A DNA stretch of 64,000 nucleotides from Rhodamnia argentea (lineage: Eukaryota > Streptophyta > Magnoliopsida > Myrtales > Myrtaceae): contig NC_063157.1 in assembly GCF_020921035.1 (NCBI RefSeq), positions 2,604,001 through 2,668,000 of the forward strand. The letters are read 5' to 3'. This document shows positions 44,401 to 63,425 of this stretch, in pieces. The notes beneath the pieces are model-generated. The model was given only the letters and a program-made list of their open reading frames with translations, was not told the DNA's origin and did not search any database. Within the stretch, counting starts at the first letter, position 1. Every line of letters begins with the position of its first letter. Made by a program: the position numbers and the translations under genes.

Positions 44401-47400
44401 GCATAGGAATCTAGGAACTCAATTGTAGCTCCATTGGTCGAGTAACTTCACTTGTATCTGCTATTATGGGCTAGCTTCATTCCCAGCACTAGGCACTGAT
44501 CTGATGGAATCTTTCGGAATTTTGTTTATGTTGGCTATTCCAGACTATTTAATATCAGTTAACACATCAAATGAATTAAGAAACTGCAGCTGGATCACCA
44601 TGGTGCCCATGCTTAATTCTTTTAACTTGTCAAGCATCAATCAACCAAAATTCTGCTCTGACTTCTAGCACAGATTGCGCTTGAGGAGGCCATAAGCATT
44701 ATTTTGATGCTTCAAAGTTCTGGTGCAATAATCTTGAACCAAAAGTTTTATGCAGCACATTCATGTGAATTTGCATCCTCTTCTAAGCTTCTGGAGTAAC
44801 TAGATACTGTTGTAACACTCTCGCGGGTCATCAAATAGTCCCTTCCCTCTTTCTTCCTTCTACTGCATCCCATCTTAAAGAACTTATAATGATACCCAAA
44901 GTGCTTTCTGATGGAAATTGGGTCAACTATGTTATGGTTGCATCAAGGCCAGTTATAGATTAGAGATTCTCTTCATCTTTGGAAAGGAGCTTCTATGTTG
45001 GATGTTGCCACAGTGTTTATATTTTTGTCTAGTTAAGTATGATTTGTTGTCTTAGGGTATATCTGGATGACTATTCTATCACTTTTTTCCTTTCCCTTTC
45101 CTTGTAGCTTTTCAATTGGATTTCTATATGATGTGAATGCCTGAAACCTTGTAAAGCATAAAAATGTTGAGATAGAGTCTATTAGAATTGCGAATGCCCG
45201 AAACCTTGTAAAGCATAAAAATGTTGAGGTATAGAGTCTGTTAGAATTGTTAAAACTCAAGATTTGTTTGTCTACAAGTAAAGTTCAATTTATTTGTTTT
45301 CACATTTTCAGAACTCTGGAGGCAATGCAAAACGCAACTCTTTTAATGCCCTGAGAATAGACCCTTACCTTTTCCTTCTTTTGGCAGATTGGGGGTAGTG
45401 GAAGTCAACCATTCACACTTTCTCAGAATTTTTTGCATGACATTTCAAAGTCTATGTTTCCATCCAACACTGGAAAGAGGGTTGCTAAATTTTCAAAGTG
45501 GCTTGATGAAAGGGAAAACGATCTTGATAACGAAAAGGTTGTTCCTACGGATGTTTTGCAATGTGGGGATACTATCTACCTGTTTGCTTTAGTATCTTCA
45601 GGTGAATTTTCTCTCTTTCCCTCTATGCCAGAGGAAGGTGTTGGAGAAGCTGAAGAGTCGAGAAATTTGAAACGTAGAGCTGATGATAATGAATCTTATG
45701 GTGGAAGTAAATATAAGAAACTGAAGTCTACATCAGAATGTGAGGTTGTTTCCCGCAGGGAAAAAGGGTTTCCTGGTATTATTGTGTCTATACAACGCGC
45801 TACAATGTCAAAGGCTAGCTCTCTGGAGCTGTTCAAGGATGCAGAACTTCGTGCTGGGCACCTGAGTATCCAAAGTAATGATGCTCCATGCTCTATGTTG
45901 CTTCAGACAGAGAGCAATTCATCTGGTTCTGATTGTGCAAAGAAAATAGTCACTTCGGCCAACACTACCAGCATTTCAGGGCTTTCTAATGGATCAATCT
46001 GGGATTCTATGACAAGATATGCAAACGAAGTTAATTTTTCCCATACTGCTCTCGAGCAGGGAAGTGTCGTTAATCCTAATGTCTTCAGAGTTATGTATAG
46101 TGCAATTCAAAGAGCTGGTGATCAAGGACTGAGCATGCGAGAAATTTCAGATGTTGTAGACATGCCTGGTATGTTTGTTTTCTTGTTCTCGTTTTGATAA
46201 TTATCCTTAAAACACTATTTGGTGAAATATTCTGTAATCTCCTATTGTTTTACTTCATTTTCTGTTCCTCCTCAGGGCTAAATATGCCGGAACTTCTTGT
46301 TGAAGTGCTGCAGTTGTTTGGCTTGGCATTAAAGGTTTGTTTTACTGTTTTAAAGCAAATCTGGGACCGTGTATTTCCTTTCAAGAGTTTCTTTAGGCTG
46401 TCAATTTTTCAGCAGCAATGTGGCCGGAATTGGTGATCTTTCCTTTGTGTATCTCTTCCTTGGCATCTCCTTCTAATATCGTGTCTGATAATATTTGGCT
46501 GACAATGGTAGCAGAGTTGACCAGAGATGAATTTTGCTGATCTGCTGAGTTACATTTTGGCTGCACATGGGTATTCATTTCATAAGTGAACAATCACGTG
46601 GGATCTTATTGGGTTGGAAATAGTTAGTCGCAATTTACGCAATAAATGCTTTTTCTCTAGGAGACTGGAAGAACCTTGATTTAGAAATAAAAGCTGCAGC
46701 CTAAGAAATTGAAGCTGGCGTTCACCCTGTCACAATTGTTGAAATGGATTGCAAACTATGCACTTCTGATATTCTAATGCTTTTGAACAGGTCAATTCTT
46801 TTGACTCTGTCCGTGTTGTTAACTCTCTGTTTCGTTCCAAATATTTTTTGACGTCAATTGCTGGTTCCGGTCGAGACCTAAAAGAACTATCGTCAACGGA
46901 GTCATTGATGAAGATCGGAGAAGATCACCTCATTTGTCATCCCAGGAATGATGATCTGGGTGGTGCTAATTCCGAGAGAGAAACAATCACCAATGTTGAT
47001 CAAATGCATAAAGTTACCATCCTTAATCTTCCTGAAGAAATTGACGTATCTGCAGATGAGGTTCAACATAGTAATGCATTTGAAGGGCCTATGGAAGGAG
47101 AAGTCAATCTGTCAAGAGGCACTCTTGAGATTGAATGCTCCAACTTTTCGTCTGGCAGGTTATGTATGCCCATTTTGCCTTGGATTAATGGAGATGGAAC
47201 TGTCAACAGGCTTGTGTACAGGGCACTCATACGCCGCGTCCTTGGTATTGTGATGTTAAATCCTGGGATATTGGAGGTACAAGCTCTCTTGCCTTAGTTA
47301 CTGCATTTCTTTTTACTTCAGTCTGCCATTTATTGCGACGATCCATCTATTGTAACATCAGCACACTATTAGTGATGATTTAAGTATTAGCTGTTGCCAT

Positions 47401-48471
47401 GTAAGTCTATTTGCTGTCAAGAGTGAAGCGACCAACTTAATCATAGTACTATATCATTTTTTTTACCCTTGTAGTTCTAGTGACAAGTTTGTTTTTGGCT
47501 TGAAGTTTAGTTGGCAGCTTGTAAGGCAACCCTTATATGAAGTTTGTTCTTGAGACTTTTATCTTCTCTCTGCAGGATGAGATAATTGGCCGATTGGATG
47601 TTCTAAACCCTCAGGTATGCACTGATATACATTCAAATTAGCCCACAATAAATGCGGAGGTACCTTTTCTGTCTGATGAACCTGTATGGAAAAAGAATAT
47701 ATTGTGTGGTTTTTGAATGATAATTGGCCCCCTCCAAATTTTGAGAACAATAACTAAAGTTCAATTAAGAGTCGGTAAAAAGAGATTACAATTTCAACTA
47801 GTCTGTCAGTATTTTCATGGAATGAGATGTTCATATGACAAATTTGCGAACCATGTAATTAGGAATTGCTGCTTCAGCATTTGTGGGTTATTGCATGCAT
47901 GGATGCAATTTTGTGTGGTCAATGGTCTGTGAGACTATGGTTGACCTTCACTTGTAAATGACGTTGGGCTATTATTCTATGGTAATGTTATCATCTAGAA
48001 AACTGTAAGTGCATCTCCTTAGCAGACTCTTTCATGGACTGTAGTTGGGTTGCCTACAGTCAAAACTATTGATGCGATATGAGTTGAAGGTGAGTGATCA
48101 CATGCATGCTTCATTTCTTAATTGGAGAGATTTCCTGTAACTTATGTCCTTGGGAAGGCATCCGCCTGATTTAAGAAAAACATCTGGTGCACCTATTGCC
48201 ATGTTGAGATTTGCAACTGATGATGTTTTTGTAGCTATTATTGTTCTTGCTTGTACGAAAGTAATTCTTTGCAATCTTTCTGCAGAGCTGTAGAAAATTG
48301 TTAGAGCTGATGGTTCTGGATAAACACCTCAATGTCAGGAAGATGCATCAAACTCAAGGCTCTGAGCCTCCTCATGTAATGAAGTCTCTTCTTGGTGGCC
48401 ATTTCAGAGAATCGAAGTTCATCTGCCGTGAGCATTTCTTTGCTAATCCAATGAGCGCGTCACTATTATAA
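33843..48471 (+). CDS. B-block-binding subunit of TFIIIC (large subunit)
   Basis: This subunit recognises the B box of tRNA and other Pol III genes as part of TFIIIC and recruits TFIIIB. Seventeen exons: 33843-34216, 36040-36442, 36552-36626, 36735-36797, 37172-37381, 37479-38057, 38159-38911, 41127-41411, 41662-41814, 42034-42416, 42966-43443, 43736-44071, 45388-46168, 46276-46334, 46791-47276, 47576-47614, 48286-48471. They sum to 5643 nt, 1880 aa; all phases close. The B-block winged-helix region spans about 125-200 (MKGVTQSQLSKEFGMGGKYM). Later conserved blocks are CRLFSLEEAIKAIPLELFLQ, DLPPEEYRVLMDTQATGRLS (exon 7), AKFHRTDWASLPDLPAPPS (exon 11) and SSGRLCMPILPWINGDGT (exon 15). Basic nuclear-localisation-like clusters occur in exon 10 (SRKRKRSSEE) and exon 13. 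Intron 1 is mostly a TIR element. Intron 7 is 2.2 kb. Its 3' end was copied twice downstream. The Arabidopsis counterpart by recall is At1g17450. Confidence 0.93.
34379..35988. mobile_element. TIR element filling TFIIIC intron 1, probable MULE relative
   Basis: Left end GGATAAGGGTG and reverse complement of right end GGGATAAGTGCACC; both then carry an internal block GTCCTAAAACTTG. The ends resemble those of the element at 1375-2685 (GGGATAAGTTCGC). Flanks are similar but not identical (ATTTACATCAA versus ATTTGTCATTAA), so the target duplication is degenerate. No transposase was seen. It accounts for about 1.6 of the 1.8 kb intron. Confidence 0.5.
40600..41160 (+). repeat. Diverged duplication in TFIIIC intron 7 copying the exon 8 acceptor
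   Basis: 40692-40725 (TTCTTGTGTAG then TTGGTCAGACTGGTGAA) parallels the true intron end and exon 8 start at 41115-41145 (TTCTTGTGTAG then TTGATCAGACTGGTGAA). Flanking words GTTGC(T/C)TCAAATAATCAA and TAGATATTTCTTC also recur at 40601-40675, 40800 and 40975-41000. The upstream copy has no continuing ORF and appears unused. Confidence 0.65.
41416..41446 (+). repeat. (CT)n microsatellite next to TFIIIC exon 8 donor
   Basis: The donor GAA|GTACAC is followed within a few bases by about 30 bases of CT repeat and a (GATCTC) triplet of repeats. Confidence 0.85.
45135..45250 (+). repeat. Tandem ~58-bp duplication in TFIIIC intron 12
   Basis: 45135-45191 (GAATGCCTGAAACCTTGTAA at its start) recurs at 45192-45250 with a few substitutions and a two-base indel. 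It is intronic, with no coding effect. Confidence 0.85.
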
Positions 48472-49575
48472 TGATGTTGTACTCTGTTGTATCCATGTAG
48501 CTGCATCTGCTAAAGAGAAAAGGAACAAGATTTAACTGTGGACTCCATGCAAATGCCTTGCGAGTGTTTACCATCTTATTTCCTTCTCTTTTTGACTTAT
48601 GTAGATCTTGCACGTGTGTGTAGCAGTGTAGCTATGTATACTAACGTTCTCTATCTCCGGCAGAGAAACCTTAGTTTTGCTAAGCTGTCTATCGTGATGA
48701 TGGCTTTCAAGCATGTTATATCTATTTGTTAAGATTGATGTCGATGTTAGCATAGCAAGTACATATCCATCCTTGCCCTTTATTTGTTGCATGTTCTTAG
48801 TTGATCAGCAGCTATACAATTTCGCGTTAGACCGTGCGTATGCCAACAGAACTTGGATCAGTCCCCAAGCTAAGTGGTCTCTCAGCTTGAGCATGTTTTT
48901 TTTCCTGGTTCAACTTCAGAGTTGTAAGCTTCGGATGATTGGGCTTTGCTCACTATTAACAAATTGCGGCAACGGTCTCCCATTTATGTTCTTATGTCGA
49001 ATCTGATGGGTTGTATTCTAATCTGAGTTAGAACAATCACATAAATAATAGAAAAATATATGAAGTACGGTTTACTCGGGTTCACTTTAGAATAGAGTTT
49101 TGTTCTGCAAAGAGATTTTATTATGATTTAGATTTACAGCCGCATAACTCGTTATAATGATTTCTCATACGAGCACAATATATATGATCTAAAAATGGAT
49201 TCAAAACCTAAGCCTATTCAAATCCCTTTGATTTCATAATAAACGGGTCAATTTAAACACAAGTCTAAATTCGTTGTTGTTTCGAGGGCACTGTCCTCGA
49301 ATTCCCGCCCGCTCATCGGCAAACGGGATTCCAGCTCGTTGACCGAGCAGAGGGACCTCCATTTCGGGGGTGCTGTCTCCGAACCCCCGTATTTCATGCA
49401 CATAGGTTATATGCTGTCAGTTCATATTTCAGTTTTTCTCAAATCATGTGAGCGTGCCCGGTATGAGAAACAAAGATTTTTGAAGTATTCGCCAACTCTA
49501 AATGAATTGAGTATGCAGGTTGCTCTGGCTATGGGTTAACAAGGTAAGATAGGGGCATCAAGCTTGGCTATTTAA
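48472..49575. other. TFIIIC 3' flank and retroelement-like spacer
   Basis: 48472-49012 is 3' flank; parts of it recur in the duplicated fragments at 56.6-56.9 kb and 58.1-58.4 kb. 49030-49550 contains a GC-richer stretch (GGGGGTGCTGTCTCCGAACC) of a kind found in plant LTRs, but no paired LTR or coding domain was found. Confidence 0.4.
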
Positions 49576-50147
49576 GGCGCGCATGATAACACTTCAAAAG
49601 CAGAATTTCTGATCTCGAAGTGCTTCTGAAGCCGAAATCCGTTTGGTAAAGACACTTCAAAAGTGCTTCTGAAACCGAAATCCGTTTGATAAAAATATTG
49701 ACTTCTGGTAGGAATTTCTACTACTGGTTGGATTTTTGGCCAACTTTGAGAAGTAAAAAATTTTTACTTTTCACCTTCAGAAATCACTTCTTTGACACCG
49801 TCGACCAACGCCCGCTCGCGGGTCACCGACCAACGCCCGCCCGACGGCCGCCGGCCGCCACTTGCCGGCCCCTCGTCGCCGGCCGCCACTCGCCGGCCAC
49901 CGATCGCCGGCCTCCTCCACCGGTCGTCCCCTCCGCCGATCGCCGCCGCCGCCGCTTGCCGCCGCCGGTATTTGATTAAAAGTAGAAATTTCAGAAGTAG
50001 AAATTTTATCAAACGTCTTTTTTTTATCAGAAATCAACTTCTGAAACGGAAATAGAAAAATCAACTTCTGCTTTTGATGGAGAAGTTGAAAAATCAACTT
50101 TTGCTTCTGATGGTGTTTCAGAAGCAGAAGTGTTGCCATGCGTGCCC
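49576..50147. mobile_element. TIR element with TTAA flanks and GC-rich core
   Basis: The left end GGCGCGCATGATAACACTTC and reverse complement of the right end GGGCACGCATGGCAACACTT are inverted, and the arms continue with CAGAAG/CTTCTG words. Both flanks are TTAA (49572-49575 and 50148-50151), compatible with a TTAA or TAA/TTA target site. The centre (49800-49970) is a low-complexity CGCCGGC tract. There is no transposase. The long ORFs through the core are compositional. Confidence 0.65.
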
Positions 50148-50349
50148 TTAATAGATGGGTTGGGTCAGTTGTTGATGTGATAGTATGGGAAGCGATGGTA
50201 GGGCAAGGGAACTCTATTGTTCGGCTCTACTTTTTGCCCATGCTTCTCACATGTGATATTTAGCGATTTAAAGATTTTATGGAGCATGTGGATATGAACG
50301 TCCAAGAGGCATTTCCTTTACCAAAAAAAAAAACGTCCAAGAGGCATTT

Positions 50350-51217
50350 CGGTAGCCGTTGTAGATACTACAAAAAGACGCCTTCCGAGAAAGGCTTCGT
50401 TGTGGCAACTTGTCCTGCTGATCGGACCTCGGAGTAGTTAGTTAGAACTAAGATAGATCGATCGCGAGTGGAGGAGAAAGTATGAACACATTTGCACGGA
50501 CAAGGTATGTTCTGTACCTTAATATTGAAGGGTGTCTAATAAAAGTAAAACCATTGTTCCAAATCCAATAAATTTCTGGATTTGGAACAGAGTCCATGCC
50601 CTTTCTGGGCATCAACAAGTAAGACGGCAAAAGCAGTTCTTTCTTGATTCCCCTCTCGTTTTGGCGTTCGACCTCTGACGTCCCTTAGCCTCCATCAAAA
50701 ACCAAAAACCTGCAGCAAAGCAACCGAATACCTCTTTACTGTCTCCCTTTCTTGTCAAGCTTTCTGATTGATGTTGCCGTCCAACAGAATGGGTCTCAAG
50801 GAAAAGTTTTCACGATACTAAAGCATGTGTAATGAGAAAAATCAAGGGGGTGTCTTTGCAAGGCGTTAGATTCACAGCTTAACTCGGCTCCGCACTCAAA
50901 TTTGGAAGAAGATAAATCTGCACCAACCTTGCTTCTCGACGTCACTGTATGCGATTCACTCGACTCTAATTGTCACGTAGTAACAGGTTTTTGTCAACAA
51001 ACCTCCTCGTCGCCTGTCGGTCATACAAAAGTCGAAGGAAAACAAAGGAAAATAAATTAAAAAAAAACGTTCTTTGATAGTTAATACTGGTGGATTCTGA
51101 TGGGGTGAGGCTGTAGCTACAAGATATAATGACAAGTCGTTCCATCCATACCAACTCCGTTATGAACTGAAGGAAAATGCAATGAACAGAAAGGTAGTAG
51201 GAGTCAATTCTGAATGT

Positions 51218-51253
<36 letters not shown>

Positions 51254-51406
51254 CATGTTATTTGTCATATGCCTGCCCCGTCTATGGCCATTTAATGCGT
51301 CTGATTACAGTCATGACCAGCTTCTAAAATGCCAACTATTTAGAAGCGGCGTAACAAGCCAAGATTTTCTACACCAGTCTTGTAATCTTTTGAGGGACAA
51401 AATTTT

Positions 51407-51443
<37 letters not shown>

Positions 51444-51446
51444 AAA
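50350..51446 (+). promoter_or_regulatory. Upstream region of first MYB gene
   Basis: 50360-50540 is similar to 58765-58930 upstream of the second MYB gene (shared AAAGGCTTC, GGTGGAGAAAGTATGAAC-like words). 51220-51345 (CT microsatellite, then CATATG and ATGCCAACTATTTAGAA) is similar to 59040-59160. A GA microsatellite fills the leader at 51411-51437, immediately before the ATG at 51447; the second gene lacks it. Confidence 0.55.
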
Positions 51447-53021
51447 ATGGTGAGGAGACCATGTTGTGAAAAGGAAGGGATGAAAAAAGGGGCTTGGTCT
51501 GCTGAAGAAGATGAAATCCTCATCAACTATGTCCAGATTCATGGTGAAGGCAAGTGGAGAAGCGTTGCTCATAATGCTGGTACAGTACACAACCACACAC
51601 CCACCCCCTCTTTTTATATTTTCTCTTCTTTAATTTGATGGAATACACCGTATATAATTTGTATCAATGTATATCCTTTTTGTTTTTTCGGGTTTCTTCT
51701 TCCTTCAAAATATGAGTTTGCTTGAGAAAAGTTTTTATTTATTTCCTGATCTTTTGAATCTTGGGTTATTGCTTGGAAGGTTTGAAGAGATGCGCCAAGA
51801 GTTGCAGGCTTAGATGGTTGAACTACTTGAGACCCAACATCAAACGAGGCGACATCACCAAGGACGAAGAAGAACTCATCATCCGGCTCCACCGCCTTCT
51901 CGGCAACCGGTCTGTACACCTCGTATATTCTAAGGAAGACTCTACTCCACTGTTAATTATATGGTGCGGCGGACACGGTGAATCATAACATCTGGAGGTT
52001 CTTGTGAAGAAATTGAGTTGTTCATCCAAGCTCTAGAGATTCAGATTGAACTGCTCTGTGCAATGCTTCATTTGCCGACTCTATGGAGTTCGCATAACAT
52101 AGCTCTTCGCTGTTTGGCCGAACTCGGTGCTTCTAAACATCCCGCTCGATAATCCTTATTGCTAGAAATTTGTATTGATATGTGTCTAGGAGACACTTTC
52201 GCGATTTTGTGCGTGCTCCTTTCATGTGGTCCACTTGAATTAAACCGCTTAGTAGCTGGTGGAAAACTTGTCCTCCTCATTCATTATCGCCCTAGTCGCT
52301 GTCAAGAAGCCTCACCTATCTTCAACGCTCTTCCTTTATTACAGATACAATCAGAAGATTCGGTCATGATTCTTTTGTTTTCACGTAATTTTCATGCATA
52401 TGCAGGTGGGCCTTGATCGCGGGGAGGCTTCCAGGACGAACGGACAATCAGATAAAGAACTACTGGAACACCGTCCTCGCCAAGAAGTGTGGATCTTTGT
52501 CATCCCAGTCTTGTACGAGCAAACCGAGCCGCGAAGCGGAAACTTCGCACTTCCGAAGTCGCGGGTCGATGAATGGTTCCGATCAAGTTGATGCAGACCA
52601 GCCATCCCTGGCCAGCATGCGCGGAATTCCTATTCCGCCCCAAAACGAACAGCACTGTTTGGCGGACAAAAGCACGGGCTTGATGAATAGCAGCAGCAGC
52701 ATCGGCAGTCAAGGCTTGTTCTCTTCACTTCTGGCCGGAGATGACCGCGACGAGGATCATCTGAGCTTTCTGATGAACATCGATACCGACGAAGATTTCA
52801 GTTCAAGGTTATTTCCCGATAGTACAATAGTGAATGAAGACAACAGCTCTGACATATTTGGTGGGCTTGAAAAGAATAATGTCGTGTCCTCATCTCCTTC
52901 CGTTGACACTTCCCATGATCAAGTAGCCAGGGTTGATACTGAGGTGATGTATGATCAGCAACCGTCGCTACATGTGGAGCTGAAGAAGCTGGCTTTGTTT
53001 CTTGATTTGGAAGATGATTGA
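51447..53021 (+). CDS. R2R3-MYB transcription factor, bHLH-interacting (copy 1)
   Basis: A plant R2R3-MYB, nuclear, DNA-binding. Exons 51447-51579, 51780-51909 and 52406-53021 (introns at the standard R2R3 positions; phases 1 and 2) give 292 aa. R2: [15 protein letters not shown]...[10 protein letters not shown] joined to [19 protein letters not shown]3: [40 protein letters not shown]. The bHLH-binding signature [DE]Lx2[RK]x3Lx6Lx3R is complete in R3 (EL, R, L, L, R). The N-terminus [15 protein letters not shown] and the R3 place it near the TT2/MYBPA and MYB5 types that act with bHLH/WD40 partners in flavonoid or epidermal programmes; the exact subgroup is not settled. The C-terminus ends [16 protein letters not shown], shared with copy 2. 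Nothing is broken. Confidence 0.92.
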
Positions 53022-53659
53022 CAAAAATTAATGAAGGGAAGTAGTAGCAAAGCAATCAAGATTGACCCACAAATTGCTGGGTCACCCAACTTTCACATTC
53101 TGAGCATTTCATCAATATTTGTCGTTTGTCTCTCTTCCAATGAAACATAGAAATTTGGATCCAGATTTTGTTTCACGTAGGCATTTGCTGTACCCTTAAA
53201 TAAATAAATAAATAAAGGGTAACGGCATCCCAAGTGTCCTTGAATTTTTACGCTATATTCATGTTGTCATAAACTTATTCTTAGTTCGAATCGAGTTTGT
53301 CTTCTCTTTTGAAATCGCTCGACATGGTCTCTACATTGTTTTGATTAATGATAATAGTTGATATACATCTCACAAGAATATTGATTTTAATAAAGCTAGC
53401 GGCCCGCGTTTTTACATTAATTTATTATCGATTGACTTGACACCACAGTGTAAAAAAGAAAAAAAAAGAGAGTAAGATCTAATGCCAATATGTAGAAACG
53501 ATCAAACCTAACGGTTCTGAAAATTTACGGTACCCGATTGATTTGATTAGATAAAGTTTAGCAAACGATACCTCCCTATTTGGAAAAAGCTTGGAACTAG
53601 AGATATTTTTATCCGAACTTGCGAATTACTGCCACTATCCCGGATAGTTTGAGTTGAAA
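53022..53659 (+). other. 3' flank of MYB copy 1, part of the duplicated unit
   Basis: 53495-53660 aligns by eye with 61141-61310 downstream of MYB copy 2 (GATTAGA(T/C)AAAGTTTAG, ATTGCCACTATCCCG). No gene. Confidence 0.6.
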
Positions 53660-54300
53660 AGTAACGGGAGAATGATAAAAAAAAAAAAATCCTAAATCAA
53701 TTGAATTTGTGCCAATTTAGTTCTATACCTTTTGATTGTGCCAATTCGGTCATAAATCTTTTCACGTTTTGTCAATTGAGTCTATTCGGCTAATTTTGGC
53801 TAAAATTGCTAACGCAAATGTTGGCTGTCCTACATGGCATGGCCAACATTGGCATGAACAATTTTATAATTTTTTAAAGTATTTTTTGAATTTTTTGAAA
53901 TTTTATAACTTTTTTTTCTACATTTCTTTTTTTTTTCTTCCTCCGCCAGTCCTTGGGTCTCCTCAATGGCCGGCAACAACCAAGGGCTGACCTCGGGCGA
54001 GCCTTGCTCAGCGGGCGAGGTTAGCCCCTTTATTGGTGGCGGAAGAAATAAAAGAAAAAGAGAGGAAAAGAAAGAGAAAAAAAAGGGATATAAAAAATAT
54101 TTTAAAAACTAAAAAAGAATTTCATGCCAACGTTGGCCATGCCACGTAAGAATGCTTACATTCATATTGGCGATTTCGGCCAAAAATGGCTGAATGGACT
54201 TAATCGGCAAACGTGAAAATATTTAGGACTAAACTGGTAAAATTGAAAAGTTTATTATTGAATTGGCATAATTGAAAAGTTTATGATCGTGAGGAATTTA
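53660..54300. mobile_element. Mutator-like non-autonomous element with long TIRs
   Basis: Inverted arms of about 180 bases share blocks such as TTTTCACGTTT(T)G, TTGGC and ATGGCATGGCCAAC. The core has GGGCGAGG/GGCCGG motifs and a poly-purine stretch. Borders are approximate, with no clear target duplication. It belongs to the same style as the fragments at 57.2-58.1, 58.4-58.7 and 63.4-63.7 kb. Confidence 0.6.
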
Positions 54301-54329
54301 TATTATAATACTATAATGAATGAGTAGAA

Positions 54330-54940
54330 GTGTAGTCGTGGATGCTTTAGACGATAATAGGACATGCGGTCAAGGAGTGACCAACAGAAACTATCCTTGC
54401 CAAAAAATAGATATCAAAAAGGGGTGTGGAAATGGAAAGCGTTTCTCCAAGAGACACGTAAACAAAAGTGGAGCCACACATTAATTCATCGTGTCTATGT
54501 GTATATATGCTCGTGTGTCGTGTACCATATTTTATACTGATATTATCTATGTGGTTCCTAAAGAAAGTCTTAAAAAAAAAAAAAAGTTTGGTGCCATAAT
54601 CTGAACGAGAGGGTGTGGAAGATCCGACCCTCGCTTGTTGGCTGGGGGACGGTGGCGACACTCTCACTTGTGGCCGGCCGGCGAACTTGCCAGCCAAGAG
54701 TTAGAAAAACGAAAGAAAAAGAATAAGAAACTCAGAAAAACTTAAAGAAATTTAAAATTCGCTCTCGCCAACGTTCGCCAAGCCGCAATGTAGAACGGTC
54801 ACTGCTGATTAGATTGTCATGTTAGTGATTTTCGATCAAAATAAGTTCAGAGCTGAATTGCCAAATTGTCAAAAGGTTCGAGACCGAATTGACAAATAAT
54901 CGAATTCTGACAAAAAGAAAAAGAAAAAGGCTAAACTGAA
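54330..54940. other. Duplicated flank, then truncated Mutator-like fragment
   Basis: 54470-54570 (GGAGCCACA, ACCATATTTTAT, ATGTGGTTC) aligns with 62290-62535. From 54590 to about 54930 lies one end of a GC-rich MULE: GGCCGGCCGGCGAAC core and a right-end-like arm (GATTTTCGATCAAAAT, TTGCCAAATTG). Confidence 0.5.
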
Positions 54941-56180
54941 AGATTTATGGCTAGTTATCACAAATTCAATAGGTTGAGGATTTTTTTGGGTAGTTTCACC
55001 ATTACTAAGCTATTGATGGAAACTACATACACAAAATGGTCCTTCATTTTATTAACCAAGGTTATAGACACGTGATGCAATAGTGCAATACTATGCCTCT
55101 CCTCTGACCACATTATATTAACCGGGACTTGGTATTGCACACGTTGTATTAAATGGTACGGACTAATTCAAGCTGGTCATTGATGATTTGAAAAAGGTTT
55201 TTTTTTAAATAGCTTGTATTATGAAAAATGAAAAGCTTTCATTCTATTGTAAGCTGCTCAAATATACTCAAAACCTAGTTTTATTGTATGTATGCTCCAG
55301 ACCTAAGTTGGAATCATGGTTCTTGTACCTAAGTTTATATGTCACTAGCCCCTAAGAGTAGGCCGTGGAATCAGTCCAACCTTTCACACAAGTTTAATGT
55401 AGTCTTAATAACATGAAACATATTCGTACTTTAGCGATCATGCACGTCATTTTGGAAATGGATAATGACATGGGTGGTCCCTGAATTTAGCCTCTAAACT
55501 ATTTTTTTTTTCGAATATAATCTCAGAGCTTTCAAAATCTACCGAATATAATCCTATCGTTAAGTGTGTTGCCATGTCACATGCATTCTTTTGATATGAA
55601 ATGTCGCGTTAACATCTATCTGGCAAAAATAATGACTTGAATTGTCATATCATTTTCATCAATTAATAGATCTAATTTTTTTTTTCCGTTTCCTCTTCGC
55701 CCGAAATAACCAGAGAAAGAAAGATATTGCCCAAAAGCCACATGTGAATTCCAACATAAAACGCTAACGTTGAGTTAATAAAAATTACAGTTACATTAGG
55801 TAACTGCATTAGAATATTTAAGAAAAGGGCTACATTGAGTGGATTTCTAAAGTTCAAGAACTAGATTGAAATTAAAAAAAAAATTAATTAAAGACTAGCA
55901 TTGAACATTGAACAAAATTCAGGGACACGATCGCAAAACACTTTTTGTCCAATACCTACTGCAGCTAAGGTTGCTACATTTAACAGGCTCGGAATATGTT
56001 ACGATATATAGAAGGCCACTTTGATTGACTAACTCTTTATTTATTTTGCTTTTGGTAAGCAACTTATTTATACAACCAAAAGATCTATTTCACCTTTAAC
56101 CCAAGAGGGGAAGAAAAGTGATCCATCATTAGCATTGCCCTAACTTCTGGCTCATTCTTTTTTCGTCTCACCATGATCAA
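54941..56180. other. AT-rich spacer
   Basis: No gene was recognised. Some weakly repeat-like sequence is present (55470-55900 has TIR-style words such as GAATATAATC) without definable ends. Confidence 0.4.
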
Positions 56181-56189
56181 AACTTGGTT

Positions 56190-56910
56190 TTTATTATTGA
56201 AATGCTGAACAACTCCAGGGAGAAGCCAAATTTGCTGACAGGCCCTCTTGAGGTTGAATGCTTATGCTCCTACCTTTCATCTGGCAGGTTATGTATGTCC
56301 ATATTGCCTTGGATTAATGGTGAGACAGAACTGTTAACAAGCTTCCTTGAAGTTCTTTTCCTTCCTCCTTTATCAAGTCCTTACCTTTATATACTGCACT
56401 TCCTTTTCACTTCGGCCTGCCATTTTTATGGCTTCGACTCCTTTCCATCCTCTGTAACATCAGCACATTTTTAGTGATGCTTCCAATGTTAAGCCTTTGC
56501 CATACAAGTCTAATTTCGGTCGAGGGCAAAGTCACCAACTTGATTAGCTTGCTACGTCATTCTTTTGACCCTTGTAGTTCTCGGTTCTAACTTTGCTTAT
56601 GGACTGATTCAGATGATGGCCTTTCAAGCATGTTACATATTTGTTAAGACTGGTTTCGGTGCTAGCATAGCAGGTCCATATCAATCCTAACCCTTTATTC
56701 GTTGCTTATTGTTAGTCGACCAGCAGCTATGCAATTTTGTGTTTGACCGTGCCTTTGCCACCACACTTGGATCAGTCCATAAGTGGAGCGGTCTCTCGGC
56801 TTGAGCGCGTTTCTTTCCGGGTTCGACCTCAGAATTGTAGGTTTTAGGCGTTTGAGCTTTGTTCATATTGAGCAAATTGCAGCCAAGGACCCCCATTTAT
56901 ATTTCTACAA
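56190..56910 (+). pseudogene. Duplicated 3' fragment of the TFIIIC gene (middle unit)
   Basis: 56225-56345 copies part of TFIIIC exon 15 (LSSGRLCMSILPWING versus FSSGRLCMPILPWING), then breaks. 56460-56590 matches intron 15 sequence (TAGTGATG, CACCAACTT, ACCCTTGTAGTTCT). 56605-56905 matches the 3' flank at 48690-48990 (GCCTTTCAAGCATGTTA, GACCAGCAGCTATGCAATTT). Exons 16 and 17 are missing between them, so the copy is internally deleted and cannot encode the protein. Confidence 0.85.
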
Positions 56911-57036
56911 ATCGCTTGATCAATAACACATGCAGCATTGGCAATAGAGGCTTGCTCTCTTCACTTCTGGTCAGGGACGATGGCGATGATGCGGATCAGC
57001 TGAGCTTTTTGATGAACATCAACATCGATGAATGAT
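56911..57036 (+). pseudogene. MYB exon-3 fragment (middle unit)
   Basis: This stretch matches the C-terminal coding region of the MYB genes: TTGCTCTCTTCACTTCTGG, and in frame LLSSLLVRDDGDDADQLSF followed by MNINIDE and a stop. MYB copy 1 has [18 protein letters not shown] at the equivalent place. The upstream MYB exons and DNA-binding domain are absent. It is abutted directly to the TFIIIC-derived fragment. Confidence 0.85.
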
Positions 57037-57246
57037 AAAGTGATTCCAAATTACACACTCATTATCGGACACCATTGAATACTGCAGGATGATGCAAAGA
57101 CATATACCAAGAAAAAATATAAAAACTTAAAGTTCTACCTATCTAGAACCCGCAGCCTACCCGTCAGAACATATTCCCTAATTTTTGGAATCAGAAACCT
57201 ACCCTCTATATTCTGAAATCTCAAACCGATCGGTTTTCACCGATCC

Positions 57247-58090
57247 GGTTATCCAAATGTCATGTTCTACCCTGGAACCATGTTCATCCCCAGTCCTAAA
57301 TGATACGGCCGATGCCGACGTGAATAATTTTTAATAATTTTTAAATTATTTATTTATTATTTTCTTCTTTGTTTTTAAATTAGATTAAAAAATTGAAAAA
57401 AGAAAAGCTAAAATTGTTTTAAAAAGAACAAAACTAAAAAAAAGAATGGCTGGAGCGCTATTGTTACTGTCTCTAATGGCCGGCGGGGTCGGCGGAGGTT
57501 GCCCAGATCTAGGCGACACATGCACTTGCCCAGGCCTAGCGAGGGTCGCCGGTGAGATCTCGCTCAAGGCAAACGATGGTTGCTGGCGCCAAGGGAGGGT
57601 GGATATCACCCAGATCCAGGCGCCCTGGCTTGGGCTTGGCGAGGGTTGCTGTCCCTCACCTGGGGCTGGCGACGCCTCACCTTGGTGTAGGGAAGGCTGA
57701 TCACCCATACCTAGGGATGGCAACCTCCATTAGCCCCTCTAACAATAGATGGTGGTAGCGACAGCAGCAAAGCTCTAGCCATCTTGCCTACCATATTCTT
57801 TGTTTTTTTTTAGTTTTGTTTTTTTAAAATAGAATTTTAGCTTTGCTTTTTTTTTTAATCTAATTTTTAAAAATAAAGAAAAGAAAATGAAATACATAAA
57901 TTTTTTTTAAAAAAAATTAAAGTATTATTAAAATTGTCCATGTCAGCACTTTCACATTAGTGATTTTCAACCAAATTGATCGGATGGATTCAATTGGTAA
58001 AACGGAAAAATGTTTAGAACAAAATTGATATGTCTATGATTGAATTAGCCAAAGTACACAAGATTTAGAATTTTTTGGACAGTTTTTCCC
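57247..58090. mobile_element. Mutator-like element, left arm reduced
   Basis: The right arm (57935-58090) has CATGTCAGCACTTTCACATT and GATTGAATTAGCCAAAGT, like the other MULE arms. The core 57470-57740 is GC-rich with repeated GGCGAGGGTTGC-like words. The left arm is short. The ORFs through the core are compositional. Confidence 0.5.
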
Positions 58091-58094
58091 CCTT

Positions 58095-58400
58095 AGATTA
58101 GCTTGCTACGTCCTTCTTTTGACCCTTTTGGCTCTTGGTTCTAATTTGGCTTGTGGACTGATTCGGATGACGGCCTTTCAAGCATGTTTTACATTTTTAA
58201 GGATTGATTTGGGTGCTAGCGTAGCAGGTCCGTATCCATCCTTACCTTACCCGTCATTCGTTGCATGTCTGTTCTTAGCTGATCAGCAGCTGTGCAATTT
58301 TGACTTTGACCCTGCTTATGCCACAGCAGTTCTTGGAGTCTTAGATCAGTCCATAAGCGAAGCGATCTCCCGGCTTGAGCATGTTTCTTTTATGATAAGG
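58095..58400 (+). pseudogene. Second duplicated fragment of the TFIIIC 3' flank (third unit)
   Basis: It matches 47490-47520 and 48690-48900, and also 56545-56800 (TTAGCTTGCTACGTC, CGGCCTTTCAAGCATGTT, GATCAGCAGCTGTGCAATTT). Only noncoding flank is retained; no TFIIIC exon is present. Confidence 0.8.
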
Positions 58401-58419
58401 GGAAGTTTCTTATTCTGCT

Positions 58420-58700
58420 CCACTTTTTTTTTTTTTTTTTTTTTTTGTCAATCGAGTCCTAAAATTTTTATATTTGTATCAATTCAATCCATCCATCTAA
58501 TTTTGGCCGGAAATTACTAGCTTGGATATTTTTTAATACTAACTTAATACATTTTTTATTTTTTTACTTAGTTTTTATTTTTTAAAGAATTTTTTCCTGT
58601 CCTTTCCTTTTCTTTTTCTTAGGGCTGGCAAGAGGCCGCCGGCCACTAGACAAGGACCGCGAGAAGGAGTTGCCAACATACCCAAGAAGCTATTGCCCTA
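58420..58700. mobile_element. Truncated Mutator-like fragment
   Basis: A long T run, then GTCAATCGAGTCCTAAAA and a GGCCGCCGGCCAC core. Only one arm is present, and it stops before the MYB copy 2 promoter. Confidence 0.5.
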
Positions 58701-58759
58701 GAGACCGAGCTCGTGGACTTATAAATTATAATATGCAGTTTCGTCTCTTTTCTTGTCGC

Positions 58760-59034
58760 GAGGCAAAACGCGCTCCGAAAAAGGCTTCATTTTGTCACCA
58801 CGTACTGCAAATGGAAGCTCGGACTAGTGAGTTTGAACTGAAATAGATTGCGATTGAAGAGGAGGACTCGAAAAATGGTGGAGAAAGTATGAACCGGGTA
58901 CGTGTCTGCATGGACAAATACATGTTCTACACAGAATATATGTTTGCAAGTAAAATGATCGTTCAGAGACAATCAATTGCCGCATGCATAAAACCAAACT
59001 TACCATTCTCCCCGTATAAGACCCGACGAGACCA

Positions 59035-59065
<31 letters not shown>

Positions 59066-59270
59066 CACGTATTATTTCTCATATGTCTGCTCCGGCCATG
59101 ACCATTCAATGCATCTGATAAAAATCAAGCCCGGCTTCTAAAATGCCAACTATTTAGAACCGACGTACCCACCAAAGAGCTCCACACCAGATTTGCAAAC
59201 TTTTGAGGGACAAAAGAGAGTTTTGGGGACCTTACCAAAAAAAAAAAAAAGAGAGTTTTGGGGAGGAAAA
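58760..59270 (+). promoter_or_regulatory. Upstream region of second MYB gene
   Basis: Homologous to 50360-51446 in two blocks (58765-58930; 59040-59240), with a CT microsatellite at 59040-59065. An A-run and GAGAGTTTTGGGGA repeated twice (59215-59230 and 59251-59264) replace the GA-rich leader of copy 1. Confidence 0.55.
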
Positions 59271-60954
59271 ATGGTGAGGAGGCCATGTTGTGAAAAGGAA
59301 GGGATGAACAAAGGAGCTTGGTCTGCTGAAGAAGATGAAATCCTCATCAACTATGTCCAGATTCATGGTGAAGGCAAGTGGCGAAGTGTTGCTCATAATG
59401 CTGGTACCACCCCTTCTTCAATTTTCTGAATAAAAGGCATTGAACTCTTTAGAGGGCTTAGTTGGTGCGTATGCAGACTTGTATGGGTGTATTCCTTCTT
59501 CTTTTGGGTTCCTTCCTTTCTTCAAAATGTGAGTTCGTTTTAGTTAAGTTCATTCAATTCGCAATCTTTTTAAGATTTCGAGTCTTGGGATTTTGCTTGG
59601 AAGGTTTGAATAGGTGTGCCAAGAGTTGCCGGCTTCGATGGTTGAACTACTTGAGACCCGGCATCAAACGAGGCGGCATCACCAAGGATGAAGAAGATCT
59701 CATCATCCGGCTCCACCGCCTTCTCGGCAACCGGTGCGTCTACCTTGTGCTCCCCTATCAATCGTTCGATGCGGTAGACACAATGAATCATGACATCAGG
59801 GTTTATATTGTCGTTTCTGAAGTGAATAATATGGTGCTAGGTGCAGTGCAATGGACTATCATCTCGAGGTTCTTGTGAACAAACTGAATACTTCATCTAA
59901 GCTTAGAGATTCAGATTGAACTGCTTTCTGCAATGCTTCATTTGCTGACTCTCTCTATCATATCGAAATCCGCATATTTATAGCGCTCAGCCGCTTAACC
60001 ATCCTTGGTGGTTCTAGATGTCTGGATCGATCTCATGTTCATGTCAACCCTTCTGGCTCACCGAATTGTATGACGTGTGTAGGTTTACTTCCACGTTTTC
60101 GTGCATGCTCCGTTCATGTGGTCCACTTGAATTAAACCGCTTCATGGATGGGGGGAAAACTTGTCCTCCTCGTTCATTATTGCCCTGTTCCCTGTCAAGA
60201 AGTCTCAACTATCTTCTCAACTCTTCATAAATTGCTGATGTGACCAGAAGATTTAAGTCGTGATTATTTTGTTTCCACGTAACTTTAATGCACATGCAGG
60301 TGGGCCTTGATCGCGGGGAGGCTTCCAGGACGAACAGACAATGAAATAAAGAATTACTGGAAGACCATCCTCGCCAAAAAGTGCGAATCTTTCTCGCTGC
60401 AGTCTTGTGCGAGAAAATCGAACCGCGAAGAGGAAGTTCTGCACTGCCGAAATCATGGGTCGAAGAATAATTCTGATCAAGTCATTGCAGACCAGCCATC
60501 AGTGGCCGGTGTCTGCGGAATTCCAAATCTTATCCAAGAAGAAAAGCACTGTTTGGTGGAGAAAAGCATAGGCTTGATCAGTAACGGCTGCAGCATTGAC
60601 AATCATGGCATGTTTTCTTCTCCTCTGGGCCGAGATGAAGGCGATGAGGGTCATCTGAGCTTTTTGACGAGCATCGACGTCGATAAGGATTTCATAATGG
60701 AAGTTGCCGGGTCGGAGACACAGTTACTTCCCGGCAACGAAACCGCGCATGAAGATAATAGTTATGACATATTTGGTGGGTTCGACAATAAGACTGCCAT
60801 GTCTTCATCTCCTTCTGACATCACTTCTGATGATCAAGTAGTCGAGATTGAAACTGAAACTGAAACTGAAACTGAGGTGATGTGTGATCAGCAACCGTGG
60901 CTACATGTGGAGCTGAAGAAGCTGGCTTCGTTTCTTGATTTGGAAGATGAATGA
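59271..60954 (+). CDS. R2R3-MYB transcription factor, bHLH-interacting (copy 2)
   Basis: Tandem paralog of the gene at 51447. Exons 59271-59403, 59604-59733 and 60300-60954 give 305 aa; exon 1 and 2 lengths (133 and 130 nt) and intron 1 (200 nt) equal those of copy 1. R2 begins [18 protein letters not shown]3 is [40 protein letters not shown]. The bHLH signature is complete. The end reads [16 protein letters not shown]. Intron 2 is also alignable with copy 1 (TTCATGTGGTCCACTTGAAT). Differences concentrate in the C-terminal activation region. One is a hexanucleotide expansion near 60849-60875 giving ETETETETE, where copy 1 has only VDTE. Both genes look functional, so divergence is probably in expression or partner choice. 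Confidence 0.92.
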
Positions 60955-61630
60955 AGGGTACACAGATTTGACATAAAATTGACAAGTAGAAGTAGTTGCA
61001 GTAAAGATTGACCGACAAATTGTTGGGTCACCTAACTTCTACACAAGGATTGTTGTCGTCTCTCTCCCAATAAATTGTCGAAATTTGCGTCCTGCTTTTG
61101 ATCAAGTCATCTGCTTTTGTCGAAATTTGCGTAACATCTAACATAGAAACCATCGAAGCTAACAACTTTGAAAATTCAAGGTAACCCAACTGATTCGATT
61201 AGACAAAGTTTAGGATGATACCTACATAATTGGAATAGCTCGGAACCACAAATATTATTATCCTAATGTCTGAATTATTGCCACTATCCCGTATATTTTG
61301 AGGTGGAAAGTGATGCGTTTATACACAATCAAATAAAATGCAGCGTCGTATTGCAACATTTAACATCTTTCAGTAGGCCCTCTGGTAGATTGAAAGAAGG
61401 CTCGGGCTCAATTCGAGCCCTAGATCTCAAGCTTTGTCCCCTTCGCCTTCTCATTCTCAGCGACAAACAACTCCTTCTATTTTCTTGCATTAAATCTCCT
61501 TTTCTCGATCAATTATATACCACATGTGTTAAATATGTCTTGAATTTTATGTACTCAGTTTTGTTCATCACCTGACTCGATATATTTTTTTGTGTGGCCT
61601 AAAAGTGGAGAAAAAATTGAGATTTAGTTT
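60955..61630 (+). other. 3' flank of MYB copy 2, part of the duplicated unit
   Basis: It parallels 53022-53660. No additional gene was recognised. Confidence 0.5.
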
Positions 61631-61639
61631 GTGATGTGG

Positions 61640-61995
61640 AGAGTTGGCCCTATTGGTCCAACTCGGAGCAAGCGAACAAATTTCCATAGCGGTATGAATA
61701 GATCTCTATAGGGGTTTGGGGGCAACGCCCCCGAGAAATTTTTTTTTGGCTCTATTTACACTGTAGCTAGGGTTTTTTCGTTTATATTGAGGATTTTTCT
61801 TACATGAGAGACTAGTGAGCCGTGTGCTTTTGTTCGATCGATAAGGCCGACTTCTGTAATCTGTACTCTCTTTGATTATAGTGGAATCTTATTTTTGCTT
61901 CGCCCATGGACGTAGATCACCTTGATTGAACCACGTAAATCTTTGTGTTTTGTCTTTGCTTTTGCATTTGTTACAACAACATGTTATAATCGAGT
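61640..61995 (+). mobile_element. Copia-like LTR fragment
   Basis: It contains the typical plant LTR string GGGTTTGGGGGCAACGCCCC, then a TATA-like GTTTATATTGAGG, and the common 3' part GATTATAGTGGAATCTT and CGTAGATCACC, ending near ACCACGTAAATCTTTGTG. No second LTR, primer-binding site or gag-pol lies beside it, so it is a solo or truncated LTR. Borders are approximate. Confidence 0.6.
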
Positions 61996-61999
61996 CCTA

Positions 62000-63425
62000 A
62001 ACTTTTGATCACGACATTGATGAATTTTTCATATATCAATCTACTCGTTTCTCGTGCAACAAAATGATGTCCCTATGTACGTCTCAACATAGAAACACCT
62101 CACCGTTTCAAACAATTTTGTCCCTTCCGTACTAAAAAAAATAAAATAAAATGGCTCTCGAATGATTTCCTGTTAAAATTGACCAGATGGACTTAATTAG
62201 CTAAACGTAAAAAGGTTTAATACTTTTTGAACATTTTCCCCCTCAAAGCAGGCAGCTTTTCTTTGGGAGACAAGGACAACTACAGAGGTGGAGCCCTAGA
62301 ACACAGGGCCACATATTAACTCATCCAACGTCTTTATTTCAGGTGTGGGTATGTGCTCATGACTATAATGCAACTTGCATTGGAATAGATCGAGTATTGG
62401 CAAACAAAAGAAATGTTAGAGAAAGAGTGGCCAAAAACAAAAGAATAAAAGATTGTCACTTCTTGCATTCATAAGCATTTATGTCGGGTACCATATTTTA
62501 TCTTGTCACTTTTTTATGTGGTTCTTGAACAAAGCCATGTTTTTGGACCTGCGCATGTCCTTAAAAGGCTTAACAGAAAGCTGAACGCTTGCTTCCGTAA
62601 GACTTTCTGGTACTTTTCTCTTACCAGGGGAAGAAAAAATATTATGGTAGGAATTGTGGGGGGGTGGTGGGGGGCGCTCGGGGGTCGGCCTCGGACCGAC
62701 TTTAGATAACCAGTAATTTGGAAGAAGACGGGTAGGTAGCAACCATTGAAATTCGGTTGTCGACCAGGAGAGAACAAACGTTCTGTTTGATATTGATAAG
62801 AAGTACGTGGAGAATATTGCATGAAGCTAGCTAGGGTTTGCTACACAAACAGAAATAGAAAATATAGATATTCGTTGTCATGTTTTAAAGGTGACTTCTC
62901 TAGAGTCTTGTGCTCTTTTAGGCTGAGAGATCTTGGCATATAATCTAATAGCATGTTCATGAAGATAATTTATAGTATTATCAATTGCTTAATAGAATAA
63001 TGTACAATATCCGAATTGATGAAGTTCAATCTCTTTTTAATCTTTTTTATGGCAATGTTCCCATTTTCCTGGGAAATTACATGTGTAAAATGATCCTTTT
63101 TATGATTTACGTAGTCTAGATTTGCGCTCAAGTTGTACTTCCTTGTCAAATTGTTAATGAGGATAGAAAATCTACTTTTGAGTTAATAATGTAGCCCGAT
63201 TGATTAATTTGTAGTGGAATGACATGGTCATTTTGCATAGTCATATGATCCCACCCATAACCATTTTCTGTAAGATAAGATGTAATAATTCTATCACCAG
63301 CTAAGAAATCTACAACACTTAAAAAAAAATGAATAGAAAAATACTCGAAAATTCGCTATTTGCTAATTTCCGAATTTGTCTCAAACCCAATGTACACAAT
63401 TCATGCTTAAAAACTTTAACGGTAA
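62000..63425. other. Spacer, end of duplicated unit
   Basis: 62150-62260 resembles a Mutator-like right arm (GACCAGATGGACTTAATTAG). 62290-62540 matches 54460-54570 and appears to end the duplicated unit. A G-rich run is at 62660-62690. No gene was recognised in 62600-63425. Confidence 0.4.

Follow-up and report, generated by a model that had tools for sequence, protein, structure and literature searches.

The locus and its genes

We analysed 64,000 nucleotides of the Rhodamnia argentea assembly (the window; C8:2,604,001-2,668,000 of a 346.7-Mb genome in 74 contigs), in which an essential gene, coding for the largest subunit of TFIIIC, is followed by genes of the R2R3-MYB family. An earlier note on this DNA had proposed that a unit of TFIIIC 3' end and MYB gene stands there three times in tandem. 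The right part of the window holds three direct, collinear units, i.e., U1 (47.1-56.2 kb), U2 (56.2-57.04 kb) and U3 (from 58.1 kb to a point outside the window, at about 65.1 kb). U1 and U3 each contain an open MYB gene, referred to as MYB1 and MYB2, respectively. A third MYB of the group, MYB3, lies 2.6 kb past the window at C8:2,670,605-2,672,101 (window-equivalent 66,605-68,101; L014:2605-4101). By our reading of its sequence, MYB3 is a pseudogene: the start codon and the donor of exon 1 are gone, and a stop interrupts the first part of exon 3. Features are collected in Table 1.

Table 1. Features of the TFIIIC-MYB locus in window coordinates
Feature	Start	End	Strand	Basis or remark
TFIIIC largest-subunit gene (GTF3C1 / B-block binding subunit), complete-looking, fragment donor	33843	48471	+	Pfam, C2 paralogue
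U1, duplicated segment in situ, reaching from within a TFIIIC exon through the tail that follows MYB1	47095	56216	+	start from U2 match 47097/56219, end from 55367-56215/64370-65141
TFIIIC stretch missing from U2 and U3 at one common junction	47484	48695	+	alignments; right edge 48,667-48,696
TFIIIC 3' flank, in all three units (U3: up to 48903)	48696	48990	+	pairwise alignment
MYB1, open R2R3-MYB, 292 aa	51447	53021	+	exons 51447-51579, 51780-51909, 52406-53021
Near-palindromic repeat in the U1 tail, like a miniature inverted-repeat transposable element (MITE)	53689	54287	.	68% to own reverse complement over 613 columns; family members elsewhere
End of U1 tail	55367	56215	+	homologous to 64370-65141 (past window, between MYB2 and MYB3)
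Tandem junction, U1 tail / TFIIIC exon sequence	56216	56222	+	GGAGAA in common; good to a few bases
U2 TFIIIC exon piece with following intron	56219	56611	+	small indels and a 34-base gap disturb the frame
U2 TFIIIC 3' flank piece	56612	56903	+	pairwise alignment
U2 piece from MYB exon 3, residues 180-217 approximately	56914	57036	+	pairwise alignment
Spacer between U2 and U3, unmatched by the other units' genes, partly palindrome family	57037	58095	.	
U3 TFIIIC intron end joined to 3' flank	58096	58391	+	junction as in U2
U3 piece upstream of MYB2	58765	58866	+	match of 50375-50475 upstream of MYB1
MYB2, open R2R3-MYB, 305 aa	59271	60954	+	exons 59271-59403, 59604-59733, 60300-60954
U3 tail piece	61144	61339	+	match of 53493-53690
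U3 tail piece	62471	62534	+	match of 54505-54567

Collinearity of the three units

The units were compared by self-BLAST of the window and then by a more sensitive pairwise comparison of the three intervals, with DNA past the window added later. All of the following matches are on the plus strand. U1 and U2 share 47097-47528/56219-56630, 48696-48990/56612-56903 and 52678-52793/56914-57032, while U2 and U3 share 56542-56816/58096-58390 and 56914-57036/60572-60690. Between U1 and U3, matches run from the TFIIIC flank to the MYB gene (48696-48903/58166-58391, 50375-50475/58765-58866, 51226-53189/59040-61115), resume behind the MYB genes (53493-53690/61144-61339, 54505-54567/62471-62534) and reach beyond the window (55212-55285/64139-64216, 55367-56215/64370-65141). 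As a control, U1 was reversed without complementing and compared with the U3 region, which gave no hit, compared to 17 hits for the real sequence at equal settings. The collinear chain accounts for seven of these hits; eight of the ten others begin within the palindromic repeat region at 53.66-54.28 kb.

The order of TFIIIC followed by MYB is thus found three times, as the earlier note had claimed. Its further claim that each unit holds the TFIIIC exon together with the 3' flank applies to U1 and U2, whereas U3 is without the exon: it begins only in the next intron, with 58,096 as the counterpart of about 47,440. Of the two homologies that it had placed behind the MYB genes, the one at 53.5/61.15 kb is recovered. 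The one at 54.5/62.3 kb exists as a small match (64 columns, 75%, E about 1e-6), but its second part lies at 62,471-62,534. The segments do not end at 54.6 and 62.5 kb as given there; they extend to 56,216 in U1 and to about 65,141 behind U3.

Breakpoints of the first duplication

The U1 tail ends at about 56,216, where TFIIIC exon sequence starts, while its homologue behind U3 (55,367-56,215 vs. 64,370-65,141; about 870-880 columns, 61% identity) continues into other DNA and then MYB3. This combination, i.e., a U1 tail joined to the head of U2 and a tail homologue behind U3, is the signature of a tandem duplication. The locus accordingly shows adjacent direct copies with the same internal order and, for the first duplication, a junction of a 3' end with a 5' end. 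One breakpoint lies within a TFIIIC coding exon (near 47,095) and the other in the DNA between MYB genes. That the MYB gene was amplified with a breakpoint inside the neighbouring TFIIIC gene, as already suggested, is therefore visible in the joined sequence itself.

The word GGAGAA is common to the three sequences that meet at the joint, i.e., TFIIIC AAGGAGAAGTC, spacer TCGGAGAACTT and joint AGGGAGAAGCC. In present-day sequence, the breakpoints do not share long homology: over 200 bases, their resemblance reaches a local score of 12.0 for a background mean of 10.9, and 33% of 500 random pairs equal it. We thus rejected non-allelic homologous recombination as the origin of the first duplication.

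A common deletion and the collapse of U2

U2 and U3 both lack about 1.2 kb of TFIIIC sequence at the same junction (Table 1). On our reading, the missing stretch comprises the last two coding exons, the stop codon and the start of the 3' flank. A single U2-U3 alignment of 295 columns (56542-56816/58096-58390) crosses the joint in both units. Since the upstream TFIIIC gene retains the stretch, the gap is the derived state, and a common derived deletion implies that U2 and U3 come from one deleted intermediate, unless sequence was later exchanged between them.

U2 is moreover reduced to a remnant. Its TFIIIC 3' flank runs directly into the central part of MYB exon 3, such that about 3.7 kb are gone (48,990 to 52,678 in terms of U1), which bears out the collapse of the middle unit that had been postulated before. 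Behind 57,036 U2 is unmatched, as is U3 before 58,096. The common derived deletion, the absence of the exon from U3 and the MYB pseudogene past the window go beyond what the earlier note had described.

We computed Jukes-Cantor distances on ungapped columns. For the TFIIIC flank, they are 0.24 (U1-U2), 0.23 (U1-U3) and 0.19 (U2-U3, including part of the 5' arm), and for the MYB fragment 0.23, 0.29 and 0.26, respectively. The other distances are 0.46 and 0.32 for the MYB introns, 0.30 for the promoter, 0.29 for the 3' flank, 0.41 for the upstream piece and 0.44 for the tail. These distances show that the two duplications were near each other in time.

Relatives and age of the MYB genes

MYB1 and MYB2 have two adjacent MYB repeats, with the WER structure 6kks as closest PDB match (residues 12-115, 1.9e-49). 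Among the 134 of 435 candidates that were scored, the top match of MYB1 elsewhere in the genome is MYB2 with 239 bits (best single match), compared to 134 for the next gene. That is, the copies are nearest to each other and not to genes elsewhere, in line with the local origin put forward earlier. With MYB2 exon 2 as query (150 of 165 candidates scored), MYB1 (91%) and MYB3 (89%) are followed by one C2 gene and two C4 genes (86%). In a tree of the DNA-binding domain, MYB1 and MYB2 group with support 92 and are joined by MYB3 (89), the C2 gene L052 (89) and the C2 gene L053 (89). The tree is based on 31 rows aligned exon by exon to the MYB2 query, all of which passed the length filter; it contains one gene twice (L006, L037), leaves out L005 (the gene of L003) and the C4 relatives close by exon 2, and includes residues at the exon 2/3 joint of L034, L035, L042, L043 and L052 that partly look intron-derived.

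The earlier note had proposed distances between the MYB genes and between the TFIIIC-derived pieces as a check. The former, i.e., the synonymous divergence (dS) of MYB1 and MYB2, is 0.287 by the method of Nei and Gojobori (NG86; bootstrap 0.196-0.389; 292 codons), next to 0.19-0.24 among the units for the TFIIIC flank. Three other estimators give a dS of 0.20-0.22, and 0.15 is found at four-fold sites (11/81). Plant substitution rates are in the range of 2.5-6.5e-9 per site and year, which together with the dS of 0.287 places the split of MYB1 and MYB2 very roughly 20-60 million years ago. Over 125 codons, dS is 0.79 for MYB1-MYB3 and 0.83 for MYB2-MYB3. MYB3 is therefore an older copy that predates the split.

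Proposed history and alternative explanations

We consider it highly probable that the locus arose by a tandem duplication anchored in TFIIIC, a deletion, a second duplication and the collapse of U2, which left two open MYB genes. The ancestral order would have been TFIIIC - MYB - spacer - MYB3. About 9 kb, which began inside the TFIIIC exon, took in the MYB gene and ended in the spacer, would have been copied by a first tandem duplication whose breakpoints had no long homology. As the junction and the flanks indicate, TFIIIC would have stayed complete upstream while the new copy received its 3' piece only. The new unit would then have dropped the 1.2 kb of TFIIIC sequence that are now missing, and a second duplication, placed after this loss by the common deletion, would have turned the deleted unit into U2 and U3, be it by simple re-duplication or by unequal crossing-over with U1. 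U2 would subsequently have collapsed through its 3.7-kb deletion, while the C-termini of MYB1 and MYB2, and perhaps their control by microRNA, became different.

Several observations weigh against this history. The edges of the second duplication, including its junction, are lost, and the GGAGAA word at the first joint could be due to chance (among 5000 random pairs, 1.6% have a shared run of at least 6 within a 14-nt window, allowing ±4 in register). Furthermore, for U2=U3, U1=U2 and U1=U3, the 3' flank (n=205) has 18, 20 and 16 shared bases and the MYB fragment (n=134) has 12, 15 and 19, such that base sharing beyond the 5' arm, taken alone, gives no support to a grouping of U2 with U3. BLAST identities are likewise higher for U1-U2 (79.1%, 78.2%) than for U2-U3 (77.6%, 76.4%). 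The conflicting base sharing and identities imply either two duplications close in time or an exchange of sequence between units. The latter is the subject of a variant that is compatible with the first steps, in which U2 is the middle product of an unequal crossing-over and combines a 5' part of the deleted unit with a 3' MYB part of U1. It would account for a 5' arm that groups U2 with U3 (18, 7 and 0 shared bases in the above order; n=71) next to a flank and a MYB fragment that are as close or closer to U1. However, the 5' arm comprises only 71 columns, part of which may be misaligned, the distance over the flank with part of the 5' arm is smaller for U2-U3 (0.19) than for U1-U2 (0.24), and rate differences could give the same patterns. 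We thus regard this variant as a tentative option that deserves to be kept in mind.

We rate each of the remaining explanations as very improbable. Palindromic repeats, which occur within the U1 tail as well as in the DNA separating U2 from U3, might suggest that a transposon (Pack-MULE or Helitron) captured pieces of TFIIIC and MYB and inserted them nearby. Yet the units lie side by side, agree in direction and order and contain intergenic DNA, and the palindrome sits within the tail. In addition, an insertion would not account for a duplicated tail (55367-56215) that passes into other DNA at 65.1 kb. A DNA search of the genome with 47,097-49,005 gave, among the best candidates, five matches, i.e., the three places at the locus and one exon-sized match on C2. 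Even less credit is due to older, independent origins of the TFIIIC pieces and a separate origin of the MYB pair. Here, the low identity of the TFIIIC exon and intron in U1-U2 (only 66-79%) is set against TFIIIC-derived distances (0.19-0.36) that overlap those of the MYB introns and flanks (0.29-0.46) and against the order kept in all units. Least plausible is an assembly artefact that put unmerged haplotypes side by side; while there is a single assembly, the aligned blocks differ by 17-34% (39% for the tail as aligned by BLAST), and the copies share a derived deletion in a nested pattern.

Selection, microRNA sites and MYB class

For MYB1/MYB2, the ratio of nonsynonymous to synonymous substitution rates (omega) over the first 115 codons is 0.16 (0.06-0.40), as opposed to 0.74 (0.47-1.19) over the remaining 177. 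That is, the DNA-binding part is constrained while the C-terminus is nearly free. Both C-terminal frames are open, with indels of only 7 and 6 codons, and both proteins end in ELKKLAxFLDLED. L052, which is among the closest relatives of the window MYBs outside the cluster, likewise has this tail (as ELKKLAxFLxLED); dS from this C2 relative is saturated (1.6-2.0).

Candidate microRNA sites in the unspliced genes were scored by a scheme of our own, in which a mismatch costs 1 and a wobble 0.5, both count double at positions 2-13 and low values are good. The miR858 sequence was that of PMC1790633. The miR858 scores are 3.0 for MYB2, 5.0 for MYB3, 7.0 for MYB1, 4.5 for L053 and 6.5 for L052. Among 20 loci (L032-L051, including MYB1 and MYB2), a score of 3.0 is reached by three, i.e., MYB2, L045 and L051. 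MYB2 thus has a good predicted site at 60326-60346, the counterpart of which in MYB1 (52432-52452) is degraded. Judging from these matches, the predicted site was probably lost in MYB1. No miR828-like site was found in the unspliced genes (best scores 12.0-13.5; MYB1 13.5, MYB2 12.5), a result of limited weight.

MYB1 and MYB2 contain the bHLH-contact signature (basic helix-loop-helix) [DE]Lx2[RK]x3Lx6Lx3R at residues 76-95, a sequence match from which binding is predicted. The signature and the R2R3 domain type are what they have in common with subgroup 5 (TT2, MYB5 and MYBPA types). For this subgroup, PMC10484168 lists the TT2 box [RP]xKAxRC, the C1 motif Lx2QG[IT]DPxTHK, C3 in the MYB5 type and G-28 in the MYBPA type. 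The TT2 box is absent from MYB1, MYB2, the C2 relative and L053, and C1 and C3 are absent from the window MYBs (as tests of MYB5 and MYBPA, the latter judged by C1). These proteins thus differ from subgroup 5 in lacking the TT2 box, C1 and C3 and in their tail ELKKLAxFLxLED, the tree having been built without a subgroup 5 reference sequence. Given the absence of the tested motifs, an assignment of MYB1/MYB2 to TT2 or MYB5 was rejected. The signature is also shared with WPS-I (the EgMYB88 group), woody-plant MYBs described as close to subgroups 4, 5, 6 and 7; in Eucalyptus and poplar, all but one WPS-I gene have a conserved miR828 site and none has a miR858 site (both according to PMC5032791). 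In contrast, the window MYBs lack a miR828-like site and MYB2 has a good predicted miR858 site, such that WPS-I was rejected as well, with limited weight as regards miR828. Within the open-access literature that was searched, no paper was found that names ELKKLA together with R2R3-MYB. Going by their family, MYB1 and MYB2 are both most likely regulators of phenylpropanoid or flavonoid genes of the MYB-bHLH-WD40 type.

The TFIIIC gene, its surroundings and the C2 paralogue

Three N-terminal open reading frames (ORFs) of the TFIIIC gene match the Pfam families WH_GTF3C1_N, B-block_TFIIIC and eWH_GTF3C1, while five middle and C-terminal ORFs have no Pfam match. Eight TFIIIC ORF blocks align in order with a paralogue on C2, and ten ranges that were checked are free of stops, apart from a closing codon in those ranges that include it. 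Upstream neighbours include ELF4-like, Myb-domain, PPR and Snf7-domain ORFs (Pfam). The order of TFIIIC, ELF4-like and Myb-domain (TRF-like) genes in 17709-48471 is presumably that of Arabidopsis At1g17450-At1g17460. Pieces of the palindrome family also occur at 57.3-58.09, 58.43-58.65 and 63.42-63.68 kb, some of them between U2 and U3. At gathering thresholds, Rfam had no match within the window.

The genome has a second TFIIIC gene on C2 at 27.036-27.046 Mb (L017/L018, C2:27.03-27.05 Mb). The MYB gene L052 (C2:27,226,501-27,229,500; gene at C2:27,227,320) lies about 182 kb from it.

The comparison of the two loci covered ORFs of at least 50 aa within 144 kb of C8 and, on the other side, 90 kb of C2. 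Besides the eight TFIIIC blocks, only three other ORFs matched (five rows); two of these share one place on C2 and the third lies within the palindrome family. None of six queried neighbour pieces (ELF4-like, two TRF-like, two PPR, one Snf7/VPS2-like) was matched in the 90 kb of C2, and gene-level synteny with the paralogue is thus not shown. We consider it rather doubtful, though conceivable, that the TFIIIC-MYB neighbourhood is ancient, i.e., that two TFIIIC genes with sister MYB clusters would stem from one old genome duplication and that, within an undescribed C-terminal MYB group, the C8 tandem copies would have parted into one form controlled by miR858 (MYB2) and one that escaped it (MYB1).

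Significance

Tandem duplication that includes part of a neighbouring gene, followed by decay, is common in plants, while the completeness of the readable scar is uncommon. Like the tandem R2R3-MYB duplications of Eucalyptus, the locus represents a local direct duplication of MYB genes; what differs is that the breakpoint within the neighbouring gene is still legible and provides the order of events. No paper combining TFIIIC, R2R3-MYB and tandem duplication was found in the open-access literature that was searched.

Tandem duplicates often lose the traces of their origin. Here, a piece of an unrelated neighbour gene serves as a marker that fixes both ends of the first duplication, reveals the original copy and orders the two duplications via their common deletion. 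With constrained DNA binding, a diverging C-terminus and a differing predicted microRNA site, MYB1 and MYB2 may thus offer a testable division of labour.

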